Shown here: positions 5,080 to 54,779 of the stretch, piece by piece
Layout: every line of letters starts with the position of its first letter
Position numbering within the stretch: the first letter of the stretch is position 1
Source of the DNA: Lawsonibacter asaccharolyticus
GTDB taxonomy: Bacteria; Bacillota; Clostridia; Oscillospirales; Oscillospiraceae
Direction of reading: 5' to 3'
DNA: 64,000 nt
Assembly (NCBI GenBank): GCA_003112755.1
Contig: BFBT01000001.1
Span: forward strand, 124,001-188,000
Position numbers and translations under genes: made by a program
The notes under the pieces: model-generated
What the model was told of the DNA's origin: nothing
The model's input: only the letters and a program-made list of their open reading frames with translations
Database searches by the model: none

Positions 5080-6549
5080 TTACCGCGCCTCCTGTGTGAG
5101 TATGTTGATCTCCTCGATCTCCGGGTCCTCGGGTCCGGTCATAGAGCAACCCTTCTCCTTGGCGTAGCGGATGTAGTCCAGGATCTCCGCCGTGATCCGC
5201 TCCCCAGGGGCCAGGATGGGGATGCCGGGGGGATAGCACATAACGAATTCGCTGCACACCTGTCCCACACTGTCCTCCAGGCGGACGCTGCGCTTGTCCG
5301 CGTAGAATGCCTCCTGGGGGCTGGTGACCACCTCGGGGGCGATGTATTCCTGGTTCATCAGGCCGCTGCCGTCGGTTTGATAGCGGCGGCGGATCTCCGC
5401 CAGGGCGCTGACCAGCCGCTCCAGCTCCTGGGGCCGGTCCCCGATGGACAGATAGGCCAAGATGTTGCCGATATCCCCGAACTCGATCTGGATGTCGTAC
5501 TCGTCCCGGAGCAGGTCGTAGACCTCGATGCCGGCCAGACCCACGTCCCGGGTGTGGACGCTGAGCTTGGTGGGGTCGAAGTCGAAGATGGAGTCGCCGT
5601 TGATGAGCTCCCGGCCGAAGGCGTAGTACCCGCCCACGGCGTTGATCTCCTCCCGGGCGTACTCCGCCATGGCGCACACCTGGCGAAAGACCTCCCGGCC
5701 GCGGAGGGCCAGGTTGCGGCGGCTGATATCCAGGCTGGACATCAGCAGATAGCTGCCCGAGGTGGTCTGAGTCAGGTTGATGATCTTCCGCACATGCCCC
5801 TCGTGGATGCCGGGGCCGATGAGCAGGAGGCTGGACTGGGTCAGGCTCCCGCCGCTCTTGTGCATGGACACGGAGGCCATGTCCGCCCCGGCTTCCATCG
5901 CTGACACCGGCATGTGGTCCCCGAAGTAGAAGTGGGTGCCGTGGGCCTCGTCCGCCAGGCAGTACATGCCCGCCTCGTGGGCCATTTCCACGATGGCCCG
6001 CAGGTCGCTGCAAATGCCGTAGTAGGTGGGGTTGTTCACCAGCACCGCCACAGCGTCTGGGTTCTCCCGGATAGCACGGGCCACCTGCTCCCGCTTCATG
6101 CCCAGGGAGATGCCCAGGCGCGGGTCCACCTCCGGGTTGACATAGACAGGGATGGCACCGCAAAGCACCAGGGCGTTGATGACGCTGCGGTGGACATTCC
6201 GGGGCATGATGATCTTGTCCCCCCGCTTGCAGGTGGACAGCACCATGCTCTGCACCGAGCTAGTGGTGCCCCCCACCATCAGAAAGGCGTGGGCCGCGCC
6301 GAAGGCGTCGGCGGCCAGCTCCTCCGCCTCCCGGATGACAGAGATGGGGTGGCACAGGTTGTCCAGGGGTTTCATGCTGTTCACGTCGATGCTGACACAC
6401 TGCTCCCCCAGGAAGCGGGTCAGCTCCGGGTTGCCCCGGCCCCGCTTGTGCCCGGGCACATCGAAGGGAACGACCCGCATCTGCCGGAAGGTCTGGAGCG
6501 CCTCGTAGATCGGGGCCTTGTTCTGGTCCAGGGTATGTTCTTCTTTCAT
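5080..6549 (-). CDS. speA: Arginine decarboxylase, fold-I Orn/Lys/Arg decarboxylase type
   Basis: The start at ATG 6549 (MKEEHTLDQNKAPIYEAL) gives 489 residues, the usual size of the short Gram-positive SpeA/YaaO class. Visible features are DVPGHKRG (residues 30-37), DEAHGTHFYF and SMHKSGGSL with the PLP lysine at about residue 231. It converts arginine to agmatine at the head of the operon; lysine decarboxylation is possible, since this family does not separate the two reliably by motif. The frame runs on upstream of 6549 into the leader, but the extension crosses the terminator hairpin and has no ribosome site. GAGG lies about 10 nt before the chosen ATG. Confidence 0.92.
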   Translation of the reverse strand: MKEEHTLDQNKAPIYEALQTFRQMRVVPFDVPGHKRGRGNPELTRFLGEQCVSIDVNSMKPLDNLCHPISVIREAEELAADAFGAAHAFLMVGGTTSSVQSMVLSTCKRGDKIIMPRNVHRSVINALVLCGAIPVYVNPEVDPRLGISLGMKREQVARAIRENPDAVAVLVNNPTYYGICSDLRAIVEMAHEAGMYCLADEAHGTHFYFGDHMPVSAMEAGADMASVSMHKSGGSLTQSSLLLIGPGIHEGHVRKIINLTQTTSGSYLLMSSLDISRRNLALRGREVFRQVCAMAEYAREEINAVGGYYAFGRELINGDSIFDFDPTKLSVHTRDVGLAGIEVYDLLRDEYDIQIEFGDIGNILAYLSIGDRPQELERLVSALAEIRRRYQTDGSGLMNQEYIAPEVVTSPQEAFYADKRSVRLEDSVGQVCSEFVMCYPPGIPILAPGERITAEILDYIRYAKEKGCSMTGPEDPEIEEINILTQEAR

Positions 6550-6569
6550 CTGCCAACACCTCGAAGCAC

Positions 6570-6605
6570 AAAAAAACACAAGCTGCATTTGAACAGCTTG
6601 TGTTT
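6570..6605 (-). terminator. Intrinsic terminator just upstream of speA (attenuator candidate)
   Basis: A perfect 12-bp stem (6574-6585 with 6594-6605, 8-nt loop) is followed on the minus strand by seven U residues (6570-6576). It lies only 20 nt before the speA start, inside the operon's own transcript, so it can act only by conditional termination. Segments GTGTTTG and CTTGTG around 6756-6775 are complementary to the first arm and could form an antiterminator. Confidence 0.8.
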
Positions 6606-6936
6606 GGATCAATTTGTACACGATAAGCTCCAAGTCCCCTGTCCGGCCGCGATGGCGGACAAACGCCTGCAAATAACAGCTGGGGCGGGAGATATGTCTG
6701 GTACTGAGAGTCTATATAGCAACAAGATACTTTTACCACTCTGTTATTGACCGTTTCACAAGTCTGCGCAAACACGCATCTGGTTATGAAGTAACCAACT
6801 TATAAAATTTGAGCTTTTAACTCAATCAATAAGGGCGGTGACCCGCCGATCGGCAATGGACCCGGCTGTCCGTATGGCCTTGACTCCCGGAGGAGTGGTC
6901 CCAGTATTCTTGGCCAGATAAACTCCAGTCAGATTG
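6606..6936 (-). promoter_or_regulatory. Long structured leader of the polyamine operon, class unrecognised
   Basis: About 330 nt without a convincing gene lie between the predicted start (about 6936) and the terminator. The first 110 nt are rich in short helices: ACTCC with loop TCCG and GGAGT, GGACC with GGTCC, and GGCGG with CCGCC. I could not match it to a T-box or to any riboswitch I know. No leader peptide with a run of arginine codons stands out. Confidence 0.5.
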
Positions 6937-53332: not shown

Positions 53333-54013
53333 ATGTTTCAAGGTTTTTCTCAGGGCGCCGTGGATTTTCTGTGGGGCGTCCGATTCAATAATGAGCGCAG
53401 CTGGTTCGAGGCCCACAAGCAGGAGTATCTGGATCTGGTCATCGCTCCCCTCCAGGAGCTGGGCCGCCAGGTCCATGCCGCCATGACCGCCGCCTATCCC
53501 AAGGAGCAGCTGAACCTTCATGTCTCCCGCATCTACCGGGATGCACGGCGGCTCCACGGCCGCGGCCCCTACAAGGACCACCTGTGGTTCACCATCCGGC
53601 CCGAGCAGGAGGGGTGGACCCATGTCCCCGCCTTCTATTTTGAGATCGCGCCGGAGTATCACAGCCTGGGGATGGGCTATTACGGCGCCGAGCCCGTCAC
53701 CATGGCCAAGTTCCGCTCCCGCATCGACCGGGACCCGGCCCCTATGGAGAAGCTGGCCCGCCGGCTCAGCCGGCAGCACCGATTCGTGCTGGAGGGCGAA
53801 ATGTACAAACGCCCCAAAGGGGACCCCGGCCCCCTGCTCTTTCCCTGGTACAACCGGAAAAACATCGCCCTGACCTGGGACCGCAACTGCGAGGGCTCCC
53901 TGTTCACCCCCGAGCTGGCTGGGGAGGCGGAGGAGAGCTTCCGCTTCCTCAAGCCCTACTACGATTACTTTCTCTCCCTCCGTGGCGACCCAGCCCCGGA
54001 TGCCTCCCGCTGA
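53333..54013 (+). CDS. DUF2461 family protein
   Basis: The 226-residue protein begins MFQGFSQGAVDFLWGVRFNN and contains ERSWFEAHKQEYLDLV, RIYRDARRLHGRGPYKDHLW and HVPAFYFEIAPEYHSLGMGY, the recurring motifs of DUF2461 (TIGR02453). No biochemical function is established. The ATG at 53333 lacks a strong ribosome site (AAGAGG about 14 nt upstream). It may be cotranscribed with the VanW gene 36 bp upstream. Confidence 0.85.
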   Translation: MFQGFSQGAVDFLWGVRFNNERSWFEAHKQEYLDLVIAPLQELGRQVHAAMTAAYPKEQLNLHVSRIYRDARRLHGRGPYKDHLWFTIRPEQEGWTHVPAFYFEIAPEYHSLGMGYYGAEPVTMAKFRSRIDRDPAPMEKLARRLSRQHRFVLEGEMYKRPKGDPGPLLFPWYNRKNIALTWDRNCEGSLFTPELAGEAEESFRFLKPYYDYFLSLRGDPAPDASR

Positions 54014-54018
54014 TACCC

Positions 54019-54057
54019 GCGGCCCCTGGGACAGCCCCCGGGGGCCGCATCCTTTTT
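54019..54057 (+). terminator. Terminator after the DUF2461 gene
   Basis: GCGGCCCC (54019-54026) pairs with GGGGCCGC (54041-54048); TCCTTTTT follows. Confidence 0.8.
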
Positions 54058-54088
54058 GAAAAATTTTATATTTTTTCCACAAAACCTC

Positions 54089-54117
54089 TTGACATCCACC
54101 TGTCTTTGTGGTACATT
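54089..54117 (+). promoter_or_regulatory. Promoter of the candidate structured RNA
   Basis: TTGACA (54089-54094) and TACATT (54112-54117) are 17 bp apart, immediately after the DUF2461 terminator. Confidence 0.75.
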
Positions 54118-54123
54118 ATAGCC

Positions 54124-54578
54124 AGAAAGGATGAGTCCAATGTTTTAAGAAGTCTGATTGATCAGATGTCACTCCCCCAGACAAGGGGATGCGTAACATG
54201 CATCAAATCTTTTCCTGATGTAAGCGGTTCCAGGCGATGAAGTCCATGCCGGCAGTGGTCAGCAAAAGAACAGCATCTCAGCGAAGCGCGCGCACGACAT
54301 CTGAACCCCACGCGTTGCCACAGAAAAAGCATCTCAGCAAGCGAAAAGGAACGTTCCAACAGACAATGCCTCATGTATGAGGGAGCACCGAAGCGTTGGG
54401 TGCAAAATGAAACTGGTTGTGCAACAGTGTTCCGGAGACTGCTAAAGAGCAAAAAACGTGGTCGCGCGAATCTGTAGAAAGAGAGGTAAACAATTGATGT
54501 TAGATAACAAGAATGGACAGAAATAACCCCTGACTGTGAGTGAACCGAGGGTGCAACAGTCAGGGGTTATTTCTTTTT
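54124..54578 (+). ncRNA. Candidate large structured RNA of about 450 nt, class unrecognised
   Basis: This stretch has its own promoter and a strong terminator but no credible coding frame on either strand. Its GC content is clearly below that of the genes. Local stems are dense: UCUGAU/AUCAGA, CCCC/GGGG, GAUGC/GCAUC, CCUCAU/AUGAGG, GCACC/GGUGC and the palindrome GGAACGUUCC. A 9-nt word GCATCTCAG occurs at 54273 and 54329, and GTGCAACAGT occurs at about 54419 and 54551. I tested it by eye against tmRNA, RNase P, 6S, SRP and T-box and found none to fit. Without covariance evidence it stays a candidate. Confidence 0.6.
54521..54578 (+). terminator. Terminator of the candidate RNA
   Basis: A perfect 15-bp stem (54521-54535 with 54558-54572) and a 22-nt loop are followed by TTTCTTTTT. 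Confidence 0.88.
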
Positions 54579-54598
54579 ATTCTTGTATCTCTGAGGAA

Positions 54599-54625
54599 GG
54601 CCGGCGGAGCATTGCTCCGCCGGCC
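54599..54625. repeat. Isolated GC-rich hairpin
   Basis: GGCCGGCGGAGCA (54599-54611) and its complement (54613-54625) form a 13-bp palindrome. No U-run follows on either side. It could be the end of the flavodoxin transcript or a REP-like unit. Confidence 0.5.
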
Positions 54626-54779
54626 CTGATTTGTCGAAAAAGTGGTGCTGTCACTTTCCGAATAGACTTGATTTTTTGTACCTGCACATGTCAAACTCTG
54701 TGAAGCCCTTTTTGCAGGCTGTGCAGCATGACTCACTCACTTGTCCAGCATGGCACTCTTCTGCTCTCCTCTGCTGTCG
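54626..54779. other. Intergenic, nothing recognised
   Basis: About 150 bp downstream of the EFR1 gene on the minus strand, AT-richer than average, without a gene, clear terminator or repeat. Confidence 0.4.

Follow-up and report, generated by a model that had tools for sequence, protein, structure and literature searches.

What is encoded between the DUF2461 gene and the ferredoxin-type gene of Lawsonibacter asaccharolyticus, in a stretch that holds no long open reading frame, and would its product act as a structured RNA or by way of ribosomes? The locus lies within a contiguous 64-kb stretch of the genome (hereafter, the window), for which an original prediction had proposed a free-standing, non-coding, structured RNA gene running from promoter to terminator and so far undescribed. 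The appearance of the sequence agrees with such a gene, transcription being a prediction: the interval 54089-54582 on the + strand comprises a promoter, approximately 460 nt and an intrinsic terminator (Table 1), and looks like a complete transcription unit.

Table 1. Sequence features of the predicted RNA gene, in window positions.
Feature	Positions	Strand	Details
Promoter	54089..54117	+	-35 TTGACA 54089-54094; 17-nt spacer; -10 TACATT 54112-54117; TG before the -10
5' micro-ORF	54126..54148	+	SD AAAGGA 54126-54131; ATG TTT TAA 54140-54148, M-F-stop
Variable A-rich, T-poor middle	54149..54480	+	Assigned from composition and folding
Small three-stem core	54357..54419	+	CAAC 54357-54360 with GTTG 54416-54419; hairpins CCTCA/TGAGG 54369-54382 and GCACC/GGTGC 54385-54403
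3' mini-ORF	54481..54526	+	SD GAGAGGT 54481-54487; start TTG 54494 or ATG 54497; MLDNKNGQK; stop TAA 54524-54526
Intrinsic terminator	54519..54582	+	19-bp uninterrupted stem, 54519-54537 with 54556-54574; 18-nt loop; T-rich tail

A promoter-to-terminator stretch and its relatives

Both promoter boxes and the 17-nt spacer of the original prediction were found, together with a TG that extends the -10 element, and the promoter block of the window copy is kept in its relatives. As had been noted, the RNA stretch is lower in GC than its surroundings (47%, versus 62% across the window). No + strand ORF of at least 50 codons lies wholly inside it; a 96-codon frame listed on the - strand at 54162-54452, within the stretch, is taken as mechanical. 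The neighbors are those originally named, with a DUF2461 gene upstream on the + strand (PF09365, E 1.6e-44) and a 4Fe-4S ferredoxin-type gene downstream on the - strand (Fer4, E 8.1e-10); because the latter is convergent, the RNA is no leader of that gene. Upstream of the -35 box, the words CGAACAAAAA or TTATACAA were seen by eye to recur, both in Lawsonibacter-like copies (e.g., L013, L019 and L022) and in others (L066, L137 and L220); they may be either a site for a regulator or an A-rich UP element.

The Rfam check suggested alongside the original prediction returned no family, the large ornate RNAs that Rfam lists being covered by it. With Rfam 15 at the gathering threshold, positions 53950-54700 gave no match, and neither did 20 diverged loci; when matches with E values of up to 5 were admitted, just 12 sub-threshold matches appeared, the best four being microRNA families placed on the terminator hairpin. 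Specific known RNAs were set aside on other grounds. ARAGORN reports no tmRNA in the window, the tmRNA of this genome lying outside it at C1:867064-867429, and the genome's 6S RNA (RF00013) likewise lies outside, at C1:1920206-1920403. CsrA sponges are rich in GGA, a word that is not enriched here (6 occurrences in the window transcript, against a shuffled mean of 10.1). Our literature search found no description of the RNA or of MLDNK peptides in the texts that it covered; supplementary lists, such as the 3161 candidates of PMC8040213, stood outside that search, and an earlier listing there is possible. Elsewhere in the window, an Rfam match to RF02440 (SpF59 / ldcC RNA; 69.8 bits) occurs at 6850-6901 on the - strand, and an Orn/Lys/Arg decarboxylase frame (5080-6672, - strand; PF01276) follows approximately 180 nt downstream of it.

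Homologs proved to be plentiful. A 521-nt stretch used as query matched 23 of 24 same-genus relatives and one of 15 other genomes of the order (25 of 40 genomes in total, the window's own included). When contigs representing one genome per species were searched with a pattern drawn from the 3' block that is best conserved, 116 stretches were found, of which seven were dropped as chance matches, as was a single viral locus found separately; among the 80 listed of the 116, most come from Oscillospiraceae, Lawsonibacter, Clostridia and MAGs. R1, a covariance model of the 3' end built from 61 sequences, matched 48 of 200 genomes of the family, in 34 of 106 genera, and 20 of 391 genomes of the class, the window's own genome being counted in each case. 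Across the phylum, where stricter large-search filters applied, only the window's own genome was matched at E 1e-4 among 398. An exact-pattern search of the order found two of 197 genomes, a count below that of the model because the pattern is strict. Judged from these sequence comparisons, this is a family of predicted small-RNA genes that is conserved across many gut Clostridia and absent from Rfam.

Up to seven matches occur per genome; the genome with seven (G398) holds five of them within approximately 3 kb of one contig. Tandem paralogous copies were observed at L206 (G398:C56:17500-23000) and L207, and also at L050, L075, L133, L141 and L150, each copy with its own mini-ORF variant (MLDNKNSQ, MLDNKNHR, MLDNKKNQ, MLDIKNYQ, MLDIKNNR or MLDIKSCE).

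The wider set of loci also bears on whether the element could be a cis-acting leader, an attenuator or the plain terminator region of a neighboring gene. Such a role has a precedent in the fthC motif, whose leader frames have their stop in a terminator stem (PMC11109978), and a DUF2461 gene precedes the element on the same strand in 47 of 113 loci. Against this, DUF2461 is undetected in the other 66 of 113, the element has a promoter of its own, and the next gene in the window is convergent. Nor is there a common gene downstream, the largest related group comprising 11 of 100 loci, with 36 singletons; the lack of a consistent downstream gene led us to reject a uORF or attenuator of a fixed gene, and because the downstream sequence is not shared among loci, the RNA gene stands alone. 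The cis-acting reading is thus already disfavored, and we regard it as highly improbable.

The original prediction described a perfect terminator stem of 15 bp; the hairpin is indeed perfect, but the uninterrupted stem spans 19 pairs. Across the 46 terminator-like sites of the window (27 on the + strand and 19 on the - strand) no stem is longer, the second longest having 16 pairs. Stems were found in 114 of 116 copies, with 13-26 uninterrupted pairs and a start 16-28 nt past the ATG of the 3' frame described below, the other two having no stem within the limits of the finder. Once the copies had been thinned at 90% identity to 61, the commonest stem length was 19 (19 of 61) and the commonest start was +22 (37 of 61). 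Covariation was counted at 17 pairs of the helix and is present at every one of them, as would be expected of a conserved terminator.

Short frames at the two ends

Two short frames with SD sequences (54140-54148 and 54497-54526) had been overlooked in the original prediction. At the 5' end, the window copy carries the sequence features of a leader minigene, namely an SD, a start, one or two sense codons and a stop close to the 5' end (Table 1), with a second in-frame ATG at 54132. An SD followed by ATG, one or two codons and a stop is present in 127 of 175 distinct 5' regions, as compared with a mean of 5.8 and a maximum of 12 across 200 shuffles, and its ATG mostly falls 22 or 28 nt past the -10. 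The micro-ORFs comprise 47 different sequences, most commonly M-Y-R (34), M-Y-K (19), M-Y (17) and M-W (10); in diverged copies the residues vary (MKK, MRI, MEE, MHR, MMR) while the length stays constant. The remaining 48 of the 175 regions have no micro-ORF; for some of them, the script may have picked the wrong promoter.

At the 3' end, a second frame runs into the terminator, the 5' foot of which holds its last codons and stop. We examined this arrangement in 82 R1 hits, taken from 121 model matches after reverse-strand palindrome matches and doubly named loci had been left out. A conserved SD, a start and an in-frame first stop at codon 8-13, as expected of a small-peptide mRNA, occur together in 81 of the 82, against a shuffled mean of 8.2 and a maximum of 17 (400 shuffles); R1 was seeded from pattern-selected sequences and so favors the 3' motif. 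The ATGYTAGAT core is absent from 22 of the hits, and 21 of these keep the arrangement (shuffled mean 1.9, maximum 7). A frame of 8-11 residues ending in the terminator foot was found in 81 of the 82 examined hits, counts that lean slightly upward because, among nearby starts, the best one was taken, with two corrected by hand. The start is often doubled (nTG-ATG), and in the window a possible TTG start precedes the ATG by one codon.

With these frames at both ends conserved as described, the claim that the sequence is non-coding is probably wrong. The encoded peptides range from MLDNKNEQK, MLDIKSEQK and MKLDLKSEQK to MIEPKNLEK, with one TTG-started (M)SEPKNEQK. A pairwise test of synonymous change gave ratios to expectation of 1.73 in frame, 0.15 in the +1 frame and 2.03 in the +2 frame, a signal that is not frame-specific, and codons 6-7 show no constraint (38 synonymous changes versus 46.3 expected). 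Because this test failed its frame control, our claim is of conserved translation signals and frame length rather than of proven selection on the peptide, and since the frame overlaps the terminator, part of its conservation is due to the hairpin. Within the 41 RNAs compared, the SD of the 3' frame is paired less than other GG (0.57 versus 0.36 in accessibility; Wilcoxon p 2e-6), though in the window copy it is only modestly accessible (0.40 versus 0.31 for other GG); over the 41 RNAs, pairing at the 3' start codon is no lower than in the middle (0.45 versus 0.44).

These data allow for a regulatory RNA operated by ribosomes, one for which translation itself rather than the peptide would matter, whether by setting the stability of the RNA, by gauging translation, or by tying up tRNAs or ribosomes. 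Residues vary more than frame length and position do, both in the 5' minigene and across the range of 3' peptides; the stem most often starts at a set distance from the ATG; and minigenes that are overexpressed can cause peptidyl-tRNA drop-off and thereby a depletion of tRNAs (PMC8708949). The residues closest to the 3' start are nonetheless constrained: among 54 distinct nine-residue frames, codon 3 specifies D or E in all and codon 5 specifies K in 51. We consider a purely ribosome-operated RNA possible but doubtful.

The middle region and the structured core

Between the two frames lies a middle that averages 32.5% A and 17.6% T (78 copies). Among relatives, the -10 and the 3' start codon lie approximately 60 to 608 nt apart, some copies having only about 60-105 nt; a distance of 792 nt at one locus (L037) reflects two tandem copies and was not counted, and the largest middle length, 716, has the same cause. 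The original prediction called the RNA hairpin-dense, a description that applies mostly to the terminator: the whole window transcript folds at a z score of -3.2, and at -1.0 once the terminator is removed. For 14 copies, the window included, folding without the terminator gives a mean z of -1.1 (range -2.7 to +0.6).

What does stand of that description, beyond the terminator, is a small core, shown for one clade. In the clade of the window, it consists of two hairpins closed by CRACC/GGUYG, and an alignment of 47 of 58 sequences (11 with a different or apparently misplaced anchor hairpin were left out) yields 39 two-sided covariation cells, as compared with 13.0 for shuffled and 8-22 for slid versions, a count that favors itself since the three-stem model was derived, with the RIBOSUM setting, and counted on one alignment. 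Without that setting, RNAalifold returns a single hairpin of four pairs from the same alignment. Taken at the level of sequence, the covariation shows selection on RNA structure too, the structure being small and shown for one clade. The original prediction had named covarying homologs in the absence of an Rfam hit as what would support it, and this is borne out in part: homologs were found and the terminator helix covaries, with the three-stem core adding to this in the one clade only. In diverged copies (L241, L234, L232, L107 and similar), we observed by eye that ACACGGCGGTGT followed by a TTTATATA-like stretch replaces the CCTCA/TGAGG hairpin, perhaps as a different clade-specific structured element. 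The repeated internal words reported earlier are present, with AGCATCTCAGC (11 nt) and GTGCAACAGT (10 nt) each occurring twice and both AGCATCTCAGC occurrences falling within 54271-54337; the stretch contains five repeated 9-mers, against a shuffled average of 0.55, a number reached by three of 300 shuffles.

The middle region also bears on a structured non-coding RNA, as originally proposed, that would act in trans and have ribosome-binding sites only to protect its ends. The covarying core and terminator agree with this idea, as does the presence of several tandem copies in some genomes, a feature that occurs for some base-pairing sRNAs. However, the sampled copies fold close to shuffled expectation without the terminator, those with the shortest distance between the -10 and the 3' start leave little room for a core, and starts and stops are kept in frame. 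A trans-acting RNA of this kind therefore appears unlikely to us. The suggested resemblance to large ornate RNAs of the OLE, GOLLD or ROOL type is not supported either, the middle being variable in length and weakly structured, and the best conserved parts being the translation signals at the ends.

A proposed function and its relation to known systems

A function by way of ribosomes is favored by two observations, namely the translation units at the ends and a middle that nearly disappears in some copies. The reading that we prefer, and to which we give close to an even chance, is of an RNA translated at both ends, a messenger for a nonapeptide with a stabilizing leader minigene, both its transcription and its translation being predicted. 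The 3' frame (MLDNKxxQK-type) would probably be the expressed part, so that the RNA would serve as mRNA for a conserved nonapeptide. Acting in cis, the 5' minigene would retain a ribosome close to the 5' end and so shield the RNA from 5'-end decay, an effect that strong 5' ribosome-binding sites have in Bacillus; it would thus be a ribosomal cap. The A-rich middle would be a spacer that, in one clade, carries a small structured control element. Two precedents underlie this proposal of a ribosomal cap joined to an expressed nonapeptide: a ribosome-binding site near the 5' end is described as able to stabilize long RNAs in Bacilli (PMC3997798), and a two-codon minigene as acting in cis, possibly through mRNA stabilization (PMC8708949). 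We infer transcription, translation, stabilization and the importance of the peptide from the conserved arrangement and the statistics given above, which are themselves observed.

The geometry of the 3' end admits a more specific model. Counted from the first base of the P-site codon, the leading edge of a ribosome lies approximately 16 nt ahead. When the stop codon occupies the A site, this edge would stand at approximately 54537, where the 5' arm of the terminator ends, and translation up to the stop would therefore be just enough to open the hairpin. The molecule could then belong to a new class of ribosome-clocked RNAs, in which the 5' minigene parks a ribosome and the 3' frame, approximately nine codons long, is tuned in length so that a ribosome at its stop opens the whole 19-bp stem, each round of translation unlocking the 3' end. 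This model, built on the spacing, is in our judgment unlikely; if true, the RNA would be a built-in translation gauge in gut Clostridia, with the nonapeptide as its read-out or by-product.

Present in many Clostridia genera, sometimes in tandem arrays, the gene seems to have been overlooked so far, because frames of 2-3 and approximately nine codons fall far below the usual cut-offs for annotation and because so slight a structure does not draw attention as an RNA family. If translated, these frames would count as some of the smallest conserved coding units, and would allow the natural role of minigenes to be tested directly; the locus also warns that 'no long ORF' need not mean 'non-coding'.

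The predicted RNA shares individual features with several known systems. Like the short stand-alone dual-function sRNAs SgrS and RNAIII, it carries a small frame. VcdRP is a further RNA of this type, yet the peptides of dual-function sRNAs are longer (29 residues for VcdP), whereas here there are frames of 2-3 and approximately nine codons, one at each end. Long stand-alone RNAs that lack a long ORF are also represented by OLE, ROOL and GOLLD; these form large structured homo-oligomers (PMC12286853), unlike the limited, clade-specific structure seen here, which has no Rfam match. Closer in layout are the fthC-type uORF motifs, in which an SD and AUG precede a terminator-like stem that holds the in-frame stop (PMC11109978); such motifs precede one fixed gene, whereas the gene downstream of the present family varies and is often in the opposite orientation. 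The 5' end most resembles the leader minigenes of axe-txe and LEE1 ler, two-codon frames with their own SD near the 5' end, which are reported to act in cis and to raise expression, possibly through mRNA stability (PMC8708949). Those minigenes precede an ordinary protein gene; here, the sole later frame has approximately nine codons and stands at a very variable distance, and the RNA ends there.
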